A stretch of DNA of 35,624 nucleotides, from NCBI GenBank assembly GCA_947463095.1, contig CANHRE010000023.1, positions 1-35,624 of the forward strand, in the 5' to 3' direction. The notes beneath the pieces were generated by a model. It saw only the letters and a list, made by a program, of their open reading frames with translations. It made no database searches and was not told where the DNA came from. The stretch is from Flavobacteriales bacterium. Lineage in GTDB: Bacteria > Bacteroidota > Bacteroidia > NS11-12g > UBA955. Position numbers and translations under genes: made by a program. Positions 12,107 to 23,327 of the stretch are shown in pieces (the first letter of the stretch is position 1; each line of letters starts with the position of its first letter).

Positions 12107-13237
12107 ATGAGGTTTAACCTACTCTTTTTGTTGTGCGGCACCGCCGGAACGCTTTCGGCGCAGTACGACAGGGGTATTCAGGTGCAAAGCTACGGCGGCT
12201 TCGTATTTCCGCATCATGAGGAAATGAAGCGCATGGAACAACATGTGGTGGGCCTTGAAGCTGCATGGTATGCCAAGGGAACGGGCTTTAAAGCCATGGA
12301 TCGCCACTTCTGGAGTCCAAGGCTGGGAGCAGGTATGCTCTTTCTGCGTATGGGTGATAGCCTCAACGGTTCGGTGTTCAGCCCCTTGGGTATTATCGAG
12401 TTTAACCTGAAAGAGCGTGCCCGAAGCACCACCACCATGCGCTGCGCCGGCGGCATCGGATACTTTACGCGCCCCTTTAGTCTGGATGGAAACTTGCGCA
12501 ACCGCGCCAATGGCAGCCACCTGAATGGCTTGATGCAGGTGCTCGTTACACGACGGCAGTATGTGGGAAAAAACGCAGAAGCCTCTTTCGGCGTAGGCAT
12601 TACCCACTTCTCTAACGGAAACTGGAAGTTCCCTAACTGGGGCGTGAACATGTTGCTGGGACAGGTTGGCGTTTCCTGGTTCTTTGCTCAGACCCCAGCC
12701 AACAGGCCCTCCTGGCCATTGTACAACGCAGATACGCCGAGCCTCCGCGGATTCTGGAATGTATCTGTACGCACCGGTCGCCGCCAGATTGCCGTTGATG
12801 ATAACCGCAACTTCAACATGTTTATGGGCGAAGTGGTGTACCATCATCCGCAAAGCAGAAGCCGACTCTGGCGCCTTGGGTTGAATTATTTTTTCGACCC
12901 TATTTATCCTTATACCAAATTCGGTCCCTGGCCCATTAAAAATCGTGCCCTGGGTTCCGTTTCGGAACTTTCGCTGCTGTTTGGACATGAATACCGCGTA
13001 GGCCGCGTGGGCATCATCGCCGATGCAGGCCTATATCTGTACCGCCCTACCGACAGTAAACGCATGTACTACGAAGCTGTGGGTTTTAAATACTACCTTA
13101 ATCCTCATGTGGTGCTGATGAACCGCTTAAGGGTGCATCTGTTCACGGCGGACTATATCGAATGGGGCGTGGGCTTCAATTTGCCCGATAAACAGATTAA
13201 GAAACCATTATTCAAAAAGGAGTTTGTTTTATTCTGA
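12107..13237 (+). CDS. Acyloxyacyl hydrolase / lipid A 3-O-deacylase (PagL-like) outer-membrane protein
   Basis: 376 residues with a signal peptide at 1-18 (MRFNLLFLLCGTAGTLSA). The key block GITHFSNGNWKFPNWGVN carries His167, Ser169 and Asn170. It matches the HxSN...PNxGxN signature of PagL-type deacylases, where His and Ser act with an acidic residue. The rest alternates hydrophobic and polar residues and ends in an aromatic strand, consistent with an outer-membrane beta-barrel. At 376 residues it is about twice the length of Pseudomonas PagL, as is usual for the Bacteroidota relatives. The likely role is removing a 3-hydroxy acyl chain from lipid A, altering the outer leaflet; activity is inferred. 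It is 14 bases downstream of the ALDH7 gene and 3 bases upstream of the Rossmann gene. Confidence 0.8.
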   Translation: MRFNLLFLLCGTAGTLSAQYDRGIQVQSYGGFVFPHHEEMKRMEQHVVGLEAAWYAKGTGFKAMDRHFWSPRLGAGMLFLRMGDSLNGSVFSPLGIIEFNLKERARSTTTMRCAGGIGYFTRPFSLDGNLRNRANGSHLNGLMQVLVTRRQYVGKNAEASFGVGITHFSNGNWKFPNWGVNMLLGQVGVSWFFAQTPANRPSWPLYNADTPSLRGFWNVSVRTGRRQIAVDDNRNFNMFMGEVVYHHPQSRSRLWRLGLNYFFDPIYPYTKFGPWPIKNRALGSVSELSLLFGHEYRVGRVGIIADAGLYLYRPTDSKRMYYEAVGFKYYLNPHVVLMNRLRVHLFTADYIEWGVGFNLPDKQIKKPLFKKEFVLF

Positions 13238-15623: not shown

Positions 15624-16182
15624 CCAGATCATCCACCAGCGCAGAAGTCATTTCCTGCCTGATTTCAGCGGGGATAAAGTCCCTGATTCCCTGATTCACA
15701 GATTGCTGGAAAACGCACATCAGGCGCCTTCGCACAAGGCTACGTTTCCCTGGCGCTTTTGCGTGTTCAGTGGTCCTGCCCTGGAGCGGCTCAGTATGGA
15801 AATGGTGCATTGGCAGGAGCAGCAGCCCGATGCGGCTGTCTTCAGCCCTGAAAAACGCGCAAAAATTTTAAGCTATCCGCAGAAGCTGAGTCATGTAATC
15901 GGGCTCGGGGTTCATATCAGCGGAAAAGTTCCGGCTTGGGAAGAAGACGCGGCCCTGGCCATGGCGGTGCAGAATATCTACCTGACCCTGGTTGAAGAAC
16001 CTCATGCTGCCGGGTACTGGAGCACGGGCAATGGAACAGGTTCAGAAACCATGAGTAAACTATGTGGTTTTGATACAGAAACCATACACCGGGGCTGGTG
16101 CTTGATTGGTCATGTGGAAACCAAGAGAACCCAAGCGGGAAGGCCGCCGCTTGAGCAGGTGGTGAACTGGTTTGCCCGCTGA
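15610..16182 (+). CDS. Nitroreductase family protein
   Basis: 190 residues, typical for small FMN-dependent nitroreductases of the YdjA type. The FMN-binding start is IIHQRRSHFLPDFSGDKV with the RRS signature, followed by LLENAHQAPSHKATFPWRF. Later landmarks are AALAMAVQNIYLTLVE and GYWSTGNGTGSE. These enzymes reduce nitro compounds or quinone-like acceptors with NAD(P)H; the natural substrate is usually unknown. Cytoplasmic dimer expected. The ATG lies inside the last codons of the EamA gene, so translation is probably coupled. The stop is eight bases from the end of the convergent FG-GAP gene, with no terminator between. Confidence 0.9.
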   Translation: MQPIDQIIHQRRSHFLPDFSGDKVPDSLIHRLLENAHQAPSHKATFPWRFCVFSGPALERLSMEMVHWQEQQPDAAVFSPEKRAKILSYPQKLSHVIGLGVHISGKVPAWEEDAALAMAVQNIYLTLVEEPHAAGYWSTGNGTGSETMSKLCGFDTETIHRGWCLIGHVETKRTQAGRPPLEQVVNWFAR

Positions 16183-16190
16183 GTTCCTGC

Positions 16191-17648
16191 TTACTTCGTA
16201 AGGTTGCGGAGCAGTACAAAGGGTATCTTGTTCTTTGCCCACATACTTGTAAATGCAGTGACAGGACTTGTTTCCATGGTCATTGAGCCTAAAATGATAT
16301 CGGTATCACCATCACTGTCCACATCGTCTGTATCCATCAACATCCACCTGCCGGCCTGGTGCAGTCTTGGGATATAGGTGTATTTTGGACGTGATGCATC
16401 GTTGGGGTCAATGATTACAAAGCCAAGGTCAGGATTTTTTATCCAGTCGGGAAAGAAGGAAATACAGGCAAATTCTAAACGCCCATCACCGTTATAATCT
16501 CCGGGATGTACCGCATAGGCGCCGGGCAAAGGGAAAAAATACTGCTGTTTATAGTCCAAGGTCTTTTCTTGCCTGAATACATAAACTCCGTGGTAAGGTT
16601 TGATGATGGCAGGAAAATCGGCATTATCGCCTGCAGTATAAAGGATTTCTTCAATCCCGTCTTTGTCCATGTCAAACAGCTTCATGCTGCTGGAGCCATA
16701 GGAGGCTGGAAATTGCATTAATGTTCGGGTGTTGAAGGTGCCATTGCCGTTGCTCAGCATCAGGTCAATCCGTTCATTGGCCTGGGCGAATAAAACCAGG
16801 ATATCCATATTTCCATCCTTGTTGAAATCGCGCAGTTCAACGCTGATGGCACCGGGGGAAGACTGGAGCATGATTCGCTTCATTCTGCCGTTTGGTTGTG
16901 AAAGGAGCAAGGACAGCCCACCGGAGTACCTACCGAACTCGCATACCACAAAATCAGGCTCGTCATCGTGGTTCCAGTCGTGCGCGCGCATGCATACAGG
17001 TCGCCGCAGGCTATCGGCAATAACTACGGCGCGTTCTATAGCGCATAGAGGTTGTTTCAGCAGCATGCCGAGCGCCTCATCGTTGGGTGAGAAGCTGCCC
17101 ATGAATAAAGAGTAACAGTGCTCTTTCCAGCGAAGAACATCCACGCCGCCCTCAGCAATCTCGCCGGCTTTAGCAATGCTGAAATCGCGGCGCAATTCCA
17201 TCCAGCTTTTATTGTTTGCGTCGGCAAGGATGATGCCTCCGTTCCCGGCAGAGCGCAGCAAGGTGAGTGAGGGAATTCCGAAACGGCTGGGGGGGATTAC
17301 CACCTGGAAGCCGCGCAAGGTTTCCGGGTGGGGTATTGCAGGTTCTGCCAGTGCATCAGGTGCGTTTTTCAGGTAATACTCCACAATCGATTTCCAGATT
17401 TTATGGCTGATACCGCCCTTGGGAGTTCCGGATCCGTTTGTGTCGGCAAACATGAATGAGGCCATGCTGGGAAGGATGTGGTTGGCCCACTGTGATTCTG
17501 GTAACAGACCCGGTTCCGGAAAGGCATGGCATCCTGTGCAATATTGCCTTGCTGCTGCTGCACCGTATTCCTTTGATGCATTGTTGCAGGAAGTGAGCAG
17601 TGCTATACCGCAGATGTATTTTATCACGTTCACAGCGTGAATAGACAC
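16191..17648 (-). CDS. Lipoprotein with N-terminal CxxCH heme motif and FG-GAP/VCBS repeats
   Basis: Up to 485 residues. No ATG is near the N-terminus: GTG codons at 17648, 17633 and 17627 are all possible, and the longest is given. The N-terminus has a lipobox (GIALLTSC, Cys21 in the long form). Residues about 35-43 read RQYCTGCHAF, a covalent heme-binding CxxCH, followed by EPGLLPESQWANHI, a short cytochrome-c-like domain. Four calcium-loop repeats follow: DFNKDGNMDILV, DMDKDGIEEIL, DYNGDGRLEFA and DVDSDGDTDIILG, typical of FG-GAP/VCBS beta-propellers, so residues about 120-480 probably form a propeller. Likely anchored in the outer membrane or periplasm. Function unknown; an exported redox or ligand-binding protein is inferred. 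An inverted repeat overlaps its start region. Confidence 0.85.
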   Translation of the reverse strand: MSIHAVNVIKYICGIALLTSCNNASKEYGAAAARQYCTGCHAFPEPGLLPESQWANHILPSMASFMFADTNGSGTPKGGISHKIWKSIVEYYLKNAPDALAEPAIPHPETLRGFQVVIPPSRFGIPSLTLLRSAGNGGIILADANNKSWMELRRDFSIAKAGEIAEGGVDVLRWKEHCYSLFMGSFSPNDEALGMLLKQPLCAIERAVVIADSLRRPVCMRAHDWNHDDEPDFVVCEFGRYSGGLSLLLSQPNGRMKRIMLQSSPGAISVELRDFNKDGNMDILVLFAQANERIDLMLSNGNGTFNTRTLMQFPASYGSSSMKLFDMDKDGIEEILYTAGDNADFPAIIKPYHGVYVFRQEKTLDYKQQYFFPLPGAYAVHPGDYNGDGRLEFACISFFPDWIKNPDLGFVIIDPNDASRPKYTYIPRLHQAGRWMLMDTDDVDSDGDTDIILGSMTMETSPVTAFTSMWAKNKIPFVLLRNLTK

Positions 17649-17657
17649 AGTGAACGT
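17626..17657. repeat. 8-bp perfect inverted repeat over the start of the FG-GAP lipoprotein gene
   Basis: ACGTTCAC at 17626-17633 and GTGAACGT at 17650-17657, separated by 16 bases. All candidate GTG starts (17648, 17633, 17627) fall within or next to it. It could be an operator for a dimeric regulator or an mRNA hairpin covering the start; it is read from sequence only. Confidence 0.5.
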
Positions 17658-17828
17658 TTCATGCAGTTGATGGGAAAGTTATGCCATTGTAAACGAAGCA
17701 ATAATGGAATTTGAAGCGCTTTAAATTGGCATAATGGGAAGGCTCACAAGTTAAAACAGCGGTAACAAACAGATATATACGACCTAATAAGGCCCGAGGA
17801 ATTTTGCTGCACCGAAATACCAAAACAT

Positions 17829-19691
17829 ATGAAAAAACATCTTCTTTTGTTCAGTGCCATGCTTGCCTCTGCAGCATTGACTGTGGCGCAGATTCCGTTT
17901 CCCGTTTCTATTGATACAGCATGGACGGCAAAAACCATCTGGATGCCTAAAAGTCCTTTGAAATCGCAGGTAATCTTCACCGGTGGTGTGGATGTGGTGA
18001 AAACCACTGCAACCTACGGTAATCCCGCAGGCCAAACCTACGCAAAGCAGTGGCACGATTTCATCGGCTTCACGCCTGACAAATCGAGCAGCGGCGACCT
18101 GGGCTGGGTTTCTGTGAACCACGAAATGACCCAGCGCAACGACTATGTGGGCGATGGCGGTGGAATGACCGTGTTTAAGCTCAAGCGCACTGATGGCGAC
18201 AAGCTGGAAGTGGTTGAGCAAAGCCTTGCCGATGGCCGCAAGGGCAAGTTCTTCAACGTTGATTTCGCCAACACCGTAGGTGAAACCGGCATGAATTGCG
18301 GCGGTATTACCGATCGCGCAAATGGCCGTATCTGGACTGCCGAAGAATGGATGCAAACCAGCAACCGTACTTTTTCTAATGGTGGTGCCAACTTCCGCGA
18401 TACAAGCAACTTTACCATTGGTGTAACAGCGCCTGCAGGTTTCCCCGGTTTCAATGGCAAGGTTATCAAGCGCTTTCAGAACGTAAACTGGATGGTTGAA
18501 ATCGATCCGGTAAATGCCAAAGCGATCCGCAAGCAATACAACTGGGGCCGCGCCGGCTGGGAAGGTGGCGTAGTGCTGCCAGACAATAAGACCGTGTTCC
18601 TGTTTGAAGACGGTTCACCCGGAATCCTCGCCAAGTTTGTAGCTACCAACGCCGGCGACTTCACCAGCGGTCAGCTTTATGTTTACAAGCACGACGCTCC
18701 AAGCAAGTGGATCACCATCGAGAACAACCTCGACACCTTGCTCGAACTCAATACAGTTGCTGTTCGCCGCGGTGCCAGCATGTTCAATCGCCTCGAATGG
18801 GGTGCGTACCATAACGGTAAAATCTACATTACTGAAACCGGCCGTGATGCATTTACCTACAACAGCGGTATCGCGAAGAGTGGTGTAATCAGCAAAGGTT
18901 TGGTTGACGGCTACAAGGCCCGTTACCGCGTGATGACCGGCAACAGCTTCCCCGGTACCGATGCCCAGGCTGCCGATTCCGTGCGCAATGGCCGCTTCTT
19001 CGATTACTATGGCCGTGTGCTCGAATTCAACCTCGCTACCAATGAAGTGCGTTCCTTCCTCGAAGGTGGTCCTTATTTCGCCACCTCAAATTCCCAAGTG
19101 CGCACCGCCGGTTATCCGATGGTTCACTTCAGTAACCCTGACGGTCTGGATTTCATGACGGTTAAAGGGAAAACTTACATGATGGTACAGGAAGATTTGA
19201 ATGGCACTTCTTTTAACCGTATGCCTGCCGGTCTGCCCATCACCTGCGAAACCTACTTCCTTGACATGGACTTAGCCAATCCAACACTTGCTGACTTGGT
19301 GCGCATCACTGCCTGTTCGCCTGGCGCTGAAATGACCGGTGCAATCGCGATTGACAGCAAGACCATGCTCATCAACCAGCAGCACCCGGCTGTAACCAAT
19401 ACGCCTCCTTACGACAACTCACTTACTTATGCCATCACCGGTTTTGACGGTACGCCTGCCCTTTCAAACGAGAAGTTCTTCGACGGCACTGCGACCTTCA
19501 CCGTGTATCCTAACCCTACTGCCCGCGAACTGCACCTCAGCCGCCGCATGGACGTTGCCATTTACGACGCCCTCGGCAAGCGTATCCGTGTTGAGCGCGA
19601 TGTGGAACTGGTGAATGTGAGCGACTTCACACCCGGTGTGTATTTCATCCGCAATACCGAAGGCGAAACCCTGCGCTTCGTAGTAGAATAA
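17829..19691 (+). CDS. PhoX-like (DUF839) secreted protein with T9SS sorting domain
   Basis: 620 residues with a signal peptide at 1-20. The core resembles PhoX/DUF839 proteins: WVSVNHE at 93-99, MNCGGITDRANGRIWTAEEW at 155-174, GWEGGVVLPDNKTVFLFEDG, and RLEWGAYHNGKIYITETGRD. From memory of PhoX alkaline phosphatase, the NCxGG cysteine and nearby acidic residues bind iron and calcium; Cys157, Glu99 and Glu172-173 are candidates here. The last roughly 75 residues are a T9SS sorting domain (FTVYPNPTARELHL, VSDFTPGVYFI). The protein should be displayed at the surface or released. Phosphatase activity is probable but unproven, since many DUF839 proteins are uncharacterised. A hairpin 24 bases after the stop separates it from the peroxidase gene. 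Confidence 0.85.
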   Translation: MKKHLLLFSAMLASAALTVAQIPFPVSIDTAWTAKTIWMPKSPLKSQVIFTGGVDVVKTTATYGNPAGQTYAKQWHDFIGFTPDKSSSGDLGWVSVNHEMTQRNDYVGDGGGMTVFKLKRTDGDKLEVVEQSLADGRKGKFFNVDFANTVGETGMNCGGITDRANGRIWTAEEWMQTSNRTFSNGGANFRDTSNFTIGVTAPAGFPGFNGKVIKRFQNVNWMVEIDPVNAKAIRKQYNWGRAGWEGGVVLPDNKTVFLFEDGSPGILAKFVATNAGDFTSGQLYVYKHDAPSKWITIENNLDTLLELNTVAVRRGASMFNRLEWGAYHNGKIYITETGRDAFTYNSGIAKSGVISKGLVDGYKARYRVMTGNSFPGTDAQAADSVRNGRFFDYYGRVLEFNLATNEVRSFLEGGPYFATSNSQVRTAGYPMVHFSNPDGLDFMTVKGKTYMMVQEDLNGTSFNRMPAGLPITCETYFLDMDLANPTLADLVRITACSPGAEMTGAIAIDSKTMLINQQHPAVTNTPPYDNSLTYAITGFDGTPALSNEKFFDGTATFTVYPNPTARELHLSRRMDVAIYDALGKRIRVERDVELVNVSDFTPGVYFIRNTEGETLRFVVE

Positions 19692-19714
19692 GTTCTTTCC
19701 AATTAACCTATTGA

Positions 19715-19751
19715 GCGACCGGTGATTCCGCAAGGAGTCTCCGGTCGTTTT
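19715..19751 (+). terminator. Long hairpin with GCAA tetraloop (probable terminator)
   Basis: The outer stem is GCGACCGG (19715-19722) with CCGGTCGT (19741-19748). After a T/T mismatch an inner stem follows, GATTCC (19724-19729) with GGAGTC (19734-19739), closed on a GCAA loop. Only four T follow, so it may terminate partially or stabilise the upstream mRNA. Confidence 0.7.
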
Positions 19752-19781
19752 GTGAAACCCGATTACCAGCAAAACCCGAAA

Positions 19782-21710
19782 ATGAACCGCCTTTACCCGA
19801 TGCTGGCCATAGTGCTTGCAGCCATAGTTTTCTATTCTTTCCGCCAGTCAGGTGCCGAAGTCCAATCGGCCGATGTGCTTACAGCCCGTTACAATCAACG
19901 TCTGGACAGTTTTCGGCAGCGTCTGGATCTGTTTATCAGCCAACTTGAATCAGCGGGGAACAAGAAGAAACCCGATCTAGCGCAACTCAATCAACAGTAT
20001 CGGGCTTTGCGTCTGGCTTTCAAGCGTTGGGAATACCTGGCTGATTACAAAGACGCTCAATTCGTAAAAGACCATGTAAACGGGGTTCCGCTGCCCAAAC
20101 CCGAGCGCAACAGCTTTGGCCTGAACACCGTCGAGCCGCATGGTTTGCAGGTGATGGATGAAGCAGCCGCTGAGATGATCAATCCGGAACAGCGGATGGA
20201 ACTGCGGGCACAGGCGAAGATTTTACAAGAGTCGCTGCATCAATACCGCCCCGATTTCCGGATTTATCCTTCCGATGTTTTTGAAGCTTCTCGCCAGGCC
20301 ATTTTGCGCGCACTCAGCATGGGGCTCAGCGCGTTCGATGTGCCCGGACTCGGTAATTCATTGCCCGATACCCGTGAAGCACTTCATGCGGTATGGGATG
20401 ACTTGAAATACCTCGGCACCATTGCCCCGCATACTGCTTTCCTTTCCATGCAACAGAAATTCCCGCTTGCCCTGGTTTACCTCGAACAGCACAACGACTT
20501 CGACCGTTTTGACCGCGCCGGCTTCACCCGCGATTATCTTTTGCCTCTGTACCGGCTCTGCGGAGAATGGCATCGTGCTTCCGGATTTGAACTGCCCGAG
20601 GAAAGACGCAGCCAGCCGGTTGCTGTGAATTATGCAGATGATGCTGTTTTTTCTGATGGATTCCTCAACCCTTATTGGTACAGCCAGGTTCCGGCAGCAC
20701 TTGAAACGCCGGAGATGAAAGAACTGGGCCGGCTGTTGTTTTACGATCCTATTCTTTCGCACGACAATCAGCGGGCCTGTTCCGGTTGCCACGCGCCGAG
20801 CAAGGGCTTTGCCGATGGATTACCCAAGAGCTTGTCCGGAGACCGTAAATCGTTCGTGCAGCGCAATGCGCCCGGACTGCTGAATTGCGTTTACAGCGAG
20901 CGTTTCTTTCACGACCTGCGCGCCGAATCGCTGATTGATCAGCAGGAACATGTGATCAGCGACCCCAAGGAGTTCAATACCGATTACTTCAAAATCATCG
21001 AAAAACTGTCCGGCAGTAGTACGTATAAGCGCATGTTCAGGGAAGCTTTTCCCGAGCAAGGCGATGGGGCCATGAGCGCCCAGAACCTGCGCCTGGCCAT
21101 TGCCCAATACGTGGCTGGCCTGCGCAGCTTTAACTCCGGTTTCGACCGCTGGATGCGTGGAGAAACCGAGGAGTTAGATCCGCTTGTACGTGAGGGCTAT
21201 AACCTTTTCATGGGGAAGGCTGCTTGCGGAACCTGTCACTTTGCGCCTGTGTTCAACGGCACAGTGCCACCGCTTTATCAGGAAACCGAAAGCGAGGTGC
21301 TGGGTGTTCCGGAGCATCCGAATGCCAAACCCTTGAAAATAGATTCAGACCCAGGGCGCGGTGCAGGAAGGTTAAAAGAAGGCGCTCCTTATTACTTGCA
21401 TTCCTTCAAAACACCCACCGTGCGGAACATCGTCGCCACGGCACCATACATGCACAATGGCGCTTATAACACATTGGAATCGGTAATGGATTTCTATAAC
21501 AGGGGAGGCGGAATCGGCCATGGATTGGAAGTGCCTTTTCAAACTTTACCCTCTGAAAAACTAGGGCTAAGCAAAAAAGAAATCAAGGCAATCATCGCAT
21601 TTATGAAGACATTAGAAGACAATCCGTTTACTCACGTTATCCCCGTCTCACTACCCAAAATTGAGGTGACGCCAGAGTTGAACAATCGTAAGCCGGGTGG
21701 GGTGTTTTAG
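19782..21710 (+). CDS. Di-heme cytochrome c peroxidase (MauG/CCP-like) with long helical N-terminal domain
   Basis: 642 residues from the ATG at 19782; an earlier in-frame start at 19722 lies in the hairpin and is rejected. An N-terminal hydrophobic segment (about 4-20) is a signal or membrane anchor. Residues about 30-305 are a soluble helical domain with LRLAFKRWEYLADYKDAQF and NTVEPHGLQVMDEAAAEM. The peroxidase part starts near 310 (KELGRLLFYDPILS). Heme motifs are CSGCH (333-337) and CGTCH (482-486). The FKTPTVRNI and APYMHNG blocks near the C-terminus are typical of the family. Canonical CCPs have about 330 residues, so roughly 300 are extra. It reduces hydrogen peroxide or oxidises partner proteins in the periplasm. 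It lies 90 bases after the PhoX-like gene, probably partly cotranscribed. Confidence 0.92.
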   Translation: MNRLYPMLAIVLAAIVFYSFRQSGAEVQSADVLTARYNQRLDSFRQRLDLFISQLESAGNKKKPDLAQLNQQYRALRLAFKRWEYLADYKDAQFVKDHVNGVPLPKPERNSFGLNTVEPHGLQVMDEAAAEMINPEQRMELRAQAKILQESLHQYRPDFRIYPSDVFEASRQAILRALSMGLSAFDVPGLGNSLPDTREALHAVWDDLKYLGTIAPHTAFLSMQQKFPLALVYLEQHNDFDRFDRAGFTRDYLLPLYRLCGEWHRASGFELPEERRSQPVAVNYADDAVFSDGFLNPYWYSQVPAALETPEMKELGRLLFYDPILSHDNQRACSGCHAPSKGFADGLPKSLSGDRKSFVQRNAPGLLNCVYSERFFHDLRAESLIDQQEHVISDPKEFNTDYFKIIEKLSGSSTYKRMFREAFPEQGDGAMSAQNLRLAIAQYVAGLRSFNSGFDRWMRGETEELDPLVREGYNLFMGKAACGTCHFAPVFNGTVPPLYQETESEVLGVPEHPNAKPLKIDSDPGRGAGRLKEGAPYYLHSFKTPTVRNIVATAPYMHNGAYNTLESVMDFYNRGGGIGHGLEVPFQTLPSEKLGLSKKEIKAIIAFMKTLEDNPFTHVIPVSLPKIEVTPELNNRKPGGVF

Positions 21711-21837
21711 GGAGTTTTGGAGTTGGGGTTCTGTCAAAGCGGGCAGCTGGAAACCTTGAACTATCCTACGAACCCTGTTTGCAAGAATCTAAACATCGAG
21801 CACATTACCCACTCCCTAACTTAAAAACACCCAACCC
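21695..21837. repeat. Imperfect inverted repeat spanning the gap between convergent genes
   Basis: GGGTGGGGTGTTTT at 21695-21708 pairs with AAAACACCCAACCC at 21824-21837 with one mismatch. With a small gap, further similarity (a TAGGGAGT-like stretch on both arms) extends inward. The left arm overlaps the end of the peroxidase gene. The 138-base gap 21711-21848 otherwise shows no gene. Confidence 0.4.
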
Positions 21838-21848
21838 CCCAAACCAAT

Positions 21849-23327
21849 TCAATACGCCCTCGCAAAAACCACTCGGCCTTTACTTGGCTTGCCGCTGAGG
21901 ATGCAGGTGCCATTTTCCTCATGTTGATCCAAAGGAATGCAGCGTATGGTAGCCTTGGTGAGTTCCTTGATTTTCTCTTCGGTTTCACCGCTGCCATCCC
22001 AATGTGCAACAGCGAAGCCTTCTTTTACGTCGATGGCTGAAACAAAATCTTCCCAGGTGTTTACCGTGTAGGTTTTGGCTGATCTGAAGTCCAGGGCCCG
22101 TTGATACAGGTTTTTCTGGATGTCGTTCAGCAGCTGCTGAATATGGGTTTCTATACCGGCAAAGGGTAGGTTTTCTTTGGTTTTAAGGTCGCGGCGTGCC
22201 ACTTCGACGGTGCCGTTGGCCAGGTCACGTGGGCCTATAGCAAGGCGCACAGGCACACCTTTCAGTTCCCACTCTGCGAATTTGAAGCCTGGTTTCTGGG
22301 TGTCGCGATCGTCGAATTTGACGCTCAGCCCTGCGGCTTCCAGCGTTTTTTTCAAGGGAAGTACGGCGTCGGCAATCAGGTTGAGTTCTTCTTCGCTCTT
22401 GTAAACAGGTACGATGACTACATGAATGGGTGCCAGTTTTGGAGGAAGTACAAGTCCTTCATCGTCGCTGTGTGCCATGATAAGCGCACCCATCAGTCGG
22501 GTAGAAACACCCCAGCTGGTAGCCCAAACATGTTCCAGGCCGCCCTCACGGGTCTGGTAGCGCACGTCGAAGGCCTTGGCAAAGTTCTGCCCCAGGAAGT
22601 GGCTGGTGCCCATTTGAAGGGCTTTGCCGTCCTGCATCATGCCTTCAATACAAAAGGTTTCGTCTGCCCCTGCGAAACGCTCGTTTTCGGTTTTTACACC
22701 GCGAATTACCGGTACGGCCATCCATTCTTCAGCGAATTGCGCATATACATCCAGCATTTTGCGGGTTTCGTCTAATGCTTCTTCCTTGGTCGCATGTGCG
22801 GTATGCCCTTCCTGCCAAAGGAATTCCGCGGTGCGCAGGAACAGACGGGTACGCATTTCCCAGCGCACTACGTTCGCCCATTGGTTAATCAGGATGGGAA
22901 GGTCGCGGTAGCTGCGTATCCAGTTGCGGTAGGTGTTCCAGATGATGGCTTCGCTGGTAGGGCGAACCACCAGTTCTTCTTCCAGTTTTGAATCAGGGTC
23001 GGTAATAAGACGGCCGGGCCTGTCAGGATCCGCTTTCAGACGATAATGCGTTACAACGGCACATTCCTTAGCGAAGCCTTCCGCATTTTTCTCTTCCTTT
23101 TCAAAAAGGCTTTTTGGCACAAAGAGCGGGAAATACGCGTTGCTGTGCCCCGTTTCCTTAAACCTGCGGTCCAGTTGGCGCTGAATGTTTTCCCAGATGG
23201 CATAGCCGTAGGGTTTGATGACCATGCACCCTTTTACGGCACTGTGTTCCGCAAGGTCTGCGTTCTTTACAAGGTTATTGTACCATTCGCTGTAGTTCTC
23301 GCTGCGCTTTACCTTTTCAAAGGCCAT
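21849..23327 (-). CDS. proS: Prolyl-tRNA synthetase (short, archaeal/eukaryote-like type)
   Basis: 492 residues, the size of the class II ProRS that lacks the bacterial insertion (editing) domain. Motifs include [17 protein letters not shown] near the N-terminus, [20 protein letters not shown] (motif 2 region), [16 protein letters not shown], and [27 protein letters not shown], given here as the short landmarks [14 protein letters not shown] and [11 protein letters not shown]. The anticodon-binding domain follows from about residue 300, and the protein ends with a C-terminal zinc-like domain finishing in ...VVFARAY. It charges tRNA-Pro with proline in the cytoplasm. The ATG at 23327 lies 33 bases downstream of a minus-strand TACCTTTG element. 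Most Bacteroidota carry this type. Confidence 0.98.

Follow-up and report, generated by a model that had tools for sequence, protein, structure and literature searches.

A stretch of 35,624 nucleotides from a Flavobacteriales bacterium (contig CANHRE010000023.1 of assembly GCA_947463095.1; hereafter, the window) carries three neighbouring genes between positions 16191 and 21710: a minus-strand gene for a lipoprotein with FG-GAP repeats, a plus-strand gene for a PhoX-like protein, and behind the latter a gene for a di-heme enzyme fused to an extra N-terminal domain. These genes are members of a real, recurring bacterial gene set, to which the one-heme lipoprotein belongs in some species only. 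We give an even chance to the proposal that the locus encodes a surface phosphatase of phosphate (Pi) starvation together with a dedicated periplasmic partner for its redox or iron maturation. Gene linkage, folds and residue conservation are observed; all that goes beyond them in this proposal is inference.

The pairing of phoX with the fused gene was followed in three samples. A scan of GTDB species genomes with alignment A1 gave 187 relatives, of which the best 80 were kept as loci. The fused gene was found directly downstream of phoX in 78 of these best 80, and the other two were contig edges. The titles of the loci named Bacteroidota plus Kapaibacterium and Ignavibacteria, and one was labelled Thalassovita. 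In an order-level sample of 108 genomes, where places with E≤2.2×10−63 were taken as strong matches to the fused gene, it adjoined PhoX in all 14 other genomes of the order having a full-length PhoX relative (one of the 14, G031, has its PhoX divided between two contigs). The listing for the 108 genomes gave 31 fused-gene places, and each of them adjoined a PhoX-domain gene or what remains of one where the contig stops; the fused copies of G102:C108 and L224, which are partial and lie at contig ends, were left out of this count. The partner was upstream and of the 620- or 1281-amino acid (aa) type in 15 places, upstream and a phytase-like/PhoX hybrid of 1700 to 2035 aa in 14, and downstream, of 1460 to 1480 aa, in the last two, with a 133-aa mono-heme gene in between in L084. 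PF05787 matched 9 of the 14 hybrids (three also by Pfam scan); the remaining 5 partners were contig-end fragments, recognised by homology.

A phylum-level sample of 148 genomes, searched with the EfeO-like part of the enzyme alone (see below), yielded 25 fused places in 24 genomes, window included. A PhoX-type gene was near 21 of the 25: the window, L253 to L257, L249 to L251, and 12 loci in which the partner is a lipoprotein of about 480-540 aa (L234 to L237, L240, L242 to L247 and L252). A 306-aa gene intervened in L251, and a gap of 633 bases in L249. The fused genes of L239 and L248 were at contig ends, and that of L241, which has no PhoX neighbour, adjoined a gene resembling purple acid phosphatases, another ferric phosphatase family. 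The lipoprotein class (A7) is assigned to PhoX by its Pfam and hhalign matches: PF05787 matched 2 of the 9 members scanned (L246, L252), and the member of L234 was recognised by eye in translation. Its 11-member alignment matched A3 in hhalign with a probability of 97.5 (E 8×10−12), and a search of the PDB with the A7 profile found no PhoX. A preliminary description of this DNA had named recurrent adjacency as a check on its grouping of the three genes; for the PhoX-like and di-heme genes it was found in all three samples, and chance adjacency of the pair is ruled out by this recurrence. The association persists through several PhoX architectures and both gene orders.

Further observations were made on the phosphatase genes of these samples. 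The PhoX-type partners of L074 to L077 are about 1280-1300 aa long (e.g. L074:7723-11568), and in the two scanned, L074 and L075, the PhoX region encloses a choice-of-anchor I domain and a lamin-tail domain. Proteins of the type IX secretion system (T9SS) that combine a phytase-like domain with segments of PhoX in a single chain are encoded by L091:3727-8835, L087:10071-15167 and L098:10853-16960. The phosphatase-like gene L241:1842-5198 (minus strand, 1118 aa), directly downstream of the fused gene, has the purple-acid-phosphatase motifs DxG, GDxxY, GNHD and GHxH. ArsR-like and ACR3-like genes, identified by eye, are near phytase-PhoX or PhoX genes in L086, L087, L217, L224 and L232, possibly suggesting a link between phosphate and arsenate.

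The middle gene of the window (17829-19691, plus strand) encodes a 620-aa protein with a Sec-like signal, a beta-propeller and a T9SS tail, which by sequence and model is a member of the PhoX superfamily with predicted phosphatase activity. PF05787 did not match this single protein even at E≤10, nor did it match anything in the whole genome of the window (G000). It did match relatives of the protein (L080, L083; 37-39% identical to it) at 1×10−41. A 10-sequence family profile reached PDB PhoX (3zwu/4amf) at E 1×10−13, and the best PDB matches of the AlphaFold model (pLDDT 85.7) in Foldseek were PhoX 4a9v/3zwu_A (E 8.4×10−18, TM 0.52-0.55). The DUF839/PhoX-like label attached earlier to this protein is thus supported by the relatives, the profile and the fold. 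Since PF05787 misses the protein of the window, counts of PhoX based on this model can be too low for Bacteroidota. The sorting domain that had been noticed at its end scored over the cut-offs of PF18962 (E 1.5×10−7) and TIGR04183 (E 3×10−7). It is a type A domain and spans residues 559-619 (about 19503-19685, plus strand); the simple xPNP tail motif was present in 59 of 79 relatives.

We took C179, E273, E387 and D479 to be the metal-ligand positions of PhoX. Two more residues, R385 and D292, are named in PMC11098088 (papers are cited here and below from excerpts of their text). Through HMMER alignments (chain index plus 4), which map the ligand set in part, C179, E273, E387, D479, D292 and R385 become C157, E245, E323, D438, D261 and R321 in the window; the first five are kept in 46 of 46 relatives, and R321 in 45. 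The fold and these mapped positions are common to the window protein and Pseudomonas fluorescens PhoX (3zwu, 4a9v). The Pseudomonas protein presumably has no T9SS tail. It also differs in its export: canonical PhoX is exported by twin-arginine translocation (Tat), and its iron probably enters the protein while still in the cytoplasm (PMC4223295). The excerpts mention no dedicated di-heme partner of it. A twin-arginine ahead of the hydrophobic core was detected by a crude test in only 1 of 79 relatives of the window protein, so the family looks Sec-exported.

The gene downstream is open from a GTG at 19722, and close homologues of its product begin at the ATG equivalent to 19782; from this ATG to 21710 (plus strand) it encodes 642 aa, and leaves the 90-base gap behind phoX that had been reported. 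Its predicted product is a MauG/MbnH-like di-heme enzyme fused to an N-terminal domain of EfeO/imelysin fold. PF03150 matched it with E 7×10−41, and the model (pLDDT 90.5) has two parts. The N-terminal part, residues 12-274 (19815-20603), gave VIA Z scores of 23.1 and 22.8 with Algp7, 22.6 with EfeO, 22.4 with EfeM and 22.2 with IPPA (PDB entries 3at7, 5y4c, 7wgu, 7q1g and 3pf0), and the fold of two four-helix bundles of imelysin/EfeO (M75) is present. Against the PDB, a 48-sequence profile of this part found EfeM, Algp7, EfeO and another alginate-binding protein at E≤1×10−4, the next match having E of at least 1; PF09375 matched 7 of the 48 relatives at E≤1 (best 2.3×10−5). The GxHxxE motif of M75 is absent from the domain, and GxQxx[DE] stands in its place in all 48. 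An M75-type variant lacking the His of the motif has been described, IPPA (PMC3143127). As GxHxxE is lacking, we assign the domain to M75 by fold membership only. At the metal residues of EfeM (PMC9174327), His126 is replaced by Gln123 (48/48), Glu129 corresponds to Asp or Glu126 (48/48), Glu189 to Asp186 (46/48, Glu in 2), and Glu90 is replaced by Lys81 (47/48). The first metal site thus persists, though altered, and the acidic site is weakened.

The rest of the model matched MacA, MbnH (Z 31.8), cytochrome c peroxidases and MauG (Z about 28). It has the CCP_MauG fold with both CxxCH motifs (residues 333-337, 20778-20792, and 482-486, 21225-21239), in agreement with the peroxidase of two CxxCH and roughly 275 helical N-terminal residues first described, the helical part of which is now recognised as the EfeO/imelysin fold. 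MbnH (6e1c) was the best profile match of the di-heme domain (E 1.3×10−48). The protein missed the equivalog cut-offs of NCBIfam, with 168.8 bits against 362.85 for the MbnH family and 153.2 against 443.85 for MauG, and is therefore a relative, not a member, of these equivalogs. Tyr572 (21495-21497) aligns with a Tyr of MbnH and with the Met of cytochrome c peroxidases, which we take to be an axial ligand; it is Tyr in 48 of 48 relatives. The di-heme domain and a Tyr at the peroxidase Met position are thus shared with MbnH and with MauG (3l4m). MbnH acts on MbnP and MauG on methylamine dehydrogenase; the enzyme of the window differs in its additional EfeO-like domain and in being encoded beside a phosphatase.

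As to the reaction, iron-centre maturation or oxidation is ranked first, for three reasons: the clients have in common that they are ferric phosphatases not exported by Tat, the enzyme includes an EfeO-type fold, and one client is purple-acid-phosphatase-like. Ranked second, and rather unlikely in our estimate, is a maturation of the MauG/MbnH type, where the di-heme domain would oxidise a Trp, Tyr or Cys of PhoX into a protein-derived cofactor, in the manner of MauG with methylamine dehydrogenase. The Tyr shared with MbnH, the rank of MbnH among profile matches and the close pairing with one client class all speak for such a reaction. It is harder to reconcile with the clients: Trp294 and Trp324 of the 620-aa T9SS class are not Trp in the 480-540-aa lipoprotein class (170 aligned profile columns, compared by eye), and the client of L241 is not of the PhoX type but resembles a purple acid phosphatase. 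Nor is the enzyme itself uniform at the position of the inter-heme Trp of peroxidases, which is His in 20, Tyr in 19, Trp in 7 and Leu in 2 of the 48 relatives.

The invariance of Gln387 and Glu397 (each 48/48), positions that presumably act in peroxidase chemistry, and the cytochrome c peroxidases among the best PDB folds would also suit an enzyme that clears H2O2 near the Cys-ligated ferric centre and is co-expressed solely to protect PhoX. We consider this quite improbable: the genome has three more di-heme peroxidase matches, on contigs other than this one, and a private enzyme with a fused EfeO-like domain is unneeded for general detoxification.

Part of the gene set has been met before. 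In Flavobacterium johnsoniae, the PhoX-like Fjoh_2478 and the MauG-like Fjoh_2477 are induced when Pi is depleted (FC column: 12.50 and 9.58, respectively; PMC8115612). A phoX/mauG-like pair is in an operon in all Flavobacterium genomes, Flavobacterium PhoX alone had no detectable activity in P. putida, and loss of phoX lowers the inducible activity; it was suggested that this PhoX may need a cofactor, a role of the kind that MauG-type maturation would fill (PMC8812569). The phoX-mauG pairing is therefore already known for Flavobacterium. The F. johnsoniae pair resembles that of the window in its PhoX-like gene beside a PF03150 MauG-like gene, its Pi-starvation induction and the proposed cofactor role (PMC8115612, PMC8812569). 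Compared by description, its PhoX is a predicted lipoprotein, like the A7 class, whereas that of the window has a T9SS tail, and the excerpts of the published account mention no EfeO/imelysin fusion, no mono-heme partner and no spread beyond Flavobacterium. Imelysin-like proteins have been linked with di-heme peroxidases, and a small group of fusions was mentioned (PMC3143127). An EfeO/M75 fold working with a heme peroxidase is likewise a feature of the EfeUOB/M and imelysin-DUF1111 systems (PMC3143127, PMC9174327), from which the enzyme of the window differs by the changes of His to Gln and Glu to Lys, by its PF03150 peroxidase family and by its PhoX neighbour. New in the present analysis are the fusion to an EfeO-type domain, the occurrence of the enzyme beside several PhoX architectures, the partners with one heme, and the hairpin that separates the two genes. 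No description of the EfeO-type fusion beside PhoX, of a mono-heme partner or of the wider spread was found in excerpts of the open-licence PMC literature.

The preliminary description had further suggested a shared role of the three products in surface phosphate or metal chemistry. Its phosphate part is supported by the published induction of the F. johnsoniae pair (PMC8115612); the FG-GAP lipoprotein is linked more loosely, as will be seen.

The non-coding parts of the locus were also compared with those of relatives. The gap between phoX and the di-heme gene holds a strong hairpin resembling an intrinsic terminator (19715-19748, plus strand), whose loop reads GCAA and which has a short run of T (z −5.16). 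Such hairpins were present in 61 of 65 PhoX/di-heme gaps of at least 40 bases, compared to 8 of 65 shuffles and 31 of 103 other codirectional gaps, and may set a high ratio of PhoX to enzyme. A terminator scan of 16000-22000 gave 5 sites, with 7.5 expected, and this hairpin was not among them; a sigma-70 scan of the same region gave 6 promoter-like sites, with 5.9 expected. A Bacteroidetes-type promoter pattern was uninformative, being present upstream of 2 of 76 PhoX genes for a shuffled mean of 1.56.

Direct repeats of 11-base period occur in the divergent region between phoX and the FG-GAP gene (17649-17828), with units TTAAAA (17751-17756) and GTAACA (17762-17767). An 11-base spacing of direct repeats is that used by PhoB. 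TTAACA-type repeats of this period were found upstream of 32 of 75 PhoX genes and in 24 of 154 cleaned controls; these replaced a first control that overlapped the PhoX upstream regions (33/76 versus 43/179). Period 22 stands out as well (29/75 versus 18/154), and the A+T content of the PhoX upstream regions is slightly higher than in controls (66.5% versus 63.3%). The period-11 repeats, the joint induction of the F. johnsoniae pair (PMC8115612) and the presence of an EfeO-like domain agree with the idea that the genes are independent members of one Pho regulon, co-regulated without physical interaction, the di-heme enzyme handling iron or electrons during Pi starvation. This idea appears improbable, because the fused gene follows PhoX across architectures and gene orders, which is beyond the usual sharing of a regulon.

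The third gene (open reading frame (ORF) 16191-17648, minus strand) is predicted to encode a mono-heme lipoprotein, a mono-heme segment being followed by FG-GAP repeats (PF13517, E 9.4×10−27). The CTGCH motif and the repeats first noticed are confirmed. The motif covers residues 37-41 (about 17526-17540, minus strand), and CxxCH and the Met 21 residues beyond, Met62 here, are invariant in the 23 aligned family members. Flanks of up to 6 kb were fetched around the 80 loci. An intact FG-GAP gene was near PhoX in 22 of them, L175 having a broken copy: it was divergent and upstream in 11, codirectional upstream in 6, codirectional downstream in 4, and downstream on the opposite strand in 1. In the order-level sample, it adjoins PhoX not only in the window but also in G069, G070 and G074, which are 3 of the 14 relatives. 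It is about 20 kb from PhoX in G049 and G053, and on a separate contig in G001; no strong match was found in the remaining 8. The three-gene adjacency proposed at first therefore holds for the PhoX/di-heme pair, and less strictly for the FG-GAP gene. A second match to the FG-GAP/cytochrome family is in the window's own genome, at G000:C6:15535-16959.

Other mono-heme proteins take this place elsewhere. A different one is near the pair in 17 other loci of the 80, downstream on the same strand in 14 (an example near the fused gene is L108:3952-5286), and the one scanned has a Cu2_monoox_C domain. FG-GAP and Cu-monooxygenase-like genes were never in the same locus; for independent loci the probability of this would be 0.002, but the loci are not independent. 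ORFs bearing CxxCH were concentrated within 2 kb (40/284, compared to 4/251 at 2-6 kb); nearly all were FG-GAP or Cu-monooxygenase-like, and only two loci outside these had one. With the phytase-PhoX type, a small cytochrome c-like gene follows the fused gene in 13 of 14 loci, and in the remaining one the contig ends there. A universal mono-heme partner was rejected, since L254 alone among the phylum-sample loci has a mono-heme gene near the fused gene; L256 has an ORF with two CxxCH some 5.5 kb from the fused gene. A mono-heme partner is thus frequent in some lineages, replaceable and dispensable.

The maturation proposal can now be set out. The PhoX-like protein, given its signal, would cross the inner membrane unfolded via Sec and, as its fold and ligand positions suggest, fold around an Fe/Ca centre of the PhoX type once in the periplasm, yielding a presumably active enzyme; T9SS, to which the tail points, would then move it to the surface. 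With the Tat route and its cytoplasmic iron insertion closed to this protein, help would be needed outside the cytoplasm. The EfeO/imelysin-type domain may dock the client or the client's iron, and the MauG/MbnH-like domain would perform the oxidation completing or restoring the ferric centre of the phosphatase. The mono-heme FG-GAP lipoprotein could exchange electrons with the di-heme domain, and the hairpin would hold the amount of partner below that of phosphatase. In favour of the proposal are the linkage in the three samples, the conserved positions of both proteins, the MbnH and EfeO-type matches, the CxxCH-bearing ORFs close to the pair, and the published induction by Pi depletion (PMC8115612), inactivity of PhoX alone (PMC8812569) and Tat/iron argument (PMC4223295).

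Several observations weigh against this proposal, above all the replaced metal residues in the EfeO-like domain and the large number of PhoX proteins that lack the partner. With the metal His changed to Gln in 48 of 48 relatives and one acidic-site Glu to Lys in 47, iron binding by the domain is doubtful; the imelysin-like proteins tested by thermofluor bound neither ferric ion nor heme (excerpts of PMC3143127). Exported PhoX-domain proteins having no fused gene nearby were read in L100, L101, L103, L217 to L222, L225, L226, L258 and L259, and such cases are common, so PhoX does not require the partner in every case; the PhoX genes of L105, L216, L227 and L233, where the contig ends, were counted neither way. 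The fused gene of L238 has no phosphatase beside it. The scarcity of mono-heme neighbours in the phylum sample points the same way, as do the period-11 repeats upstream of only 2 of 22 FG-GAP genes. Finally, the hairpin could separate two transcripts instead of setting a ratio.

The stricter statement that every exported PhoX with no twin-arginine needs the partner was rejected, as such proteins with no fused neighbour exist. As for the twin-arginine type, two full-length cases were read, which are few, and neither has a fused neighbour, which speaks for the proposal: L260 of G195, a genome in which the Sec lipoprotein PhoX of L246 does have one, and L231 of G037, where the contig ends at PhoX and the best di-heme match in the genome is not of the fused type (E 1.4×10−31).

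A bolder version of the proposal, which we put forward tentatively and think rather less probable than the general one, is that the fused protein may be the founding case of a periplasmic ferric-centre chaperone. It would oxidise and load iron into Sec/T9SS-exported phosphatases of Bacteroidota (PhoX, phytase-PhoX hybrids, even purple-acid-phosphatase-like proteins) in replacement of Tat-linked cytoplasmic loading, using interchangeable mono-heme electron partners. PhoX-type phosphatases matter for the turnover of organic phosphorus. If the fused protein is a required partner, activity assays lacking the di-heme protein are misleading. If the proposal is true, it would also show how an iron enzyme among Sec/T9SS cargo can mature after it has left the cytoplasm.

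Around the three genes, for which the gene calls and coordinates first reported were right, the outward neighbours look unrelated: a nitroreductase-family gene, and a prolyl-tRNA synthetase gene on the opposite flank. An Rfam scan of the window gave no match at gathering scores. Further away, a gene at 12107-13237 (plus strand) matched the PagL-like lipid A deacylase family (PF09411).

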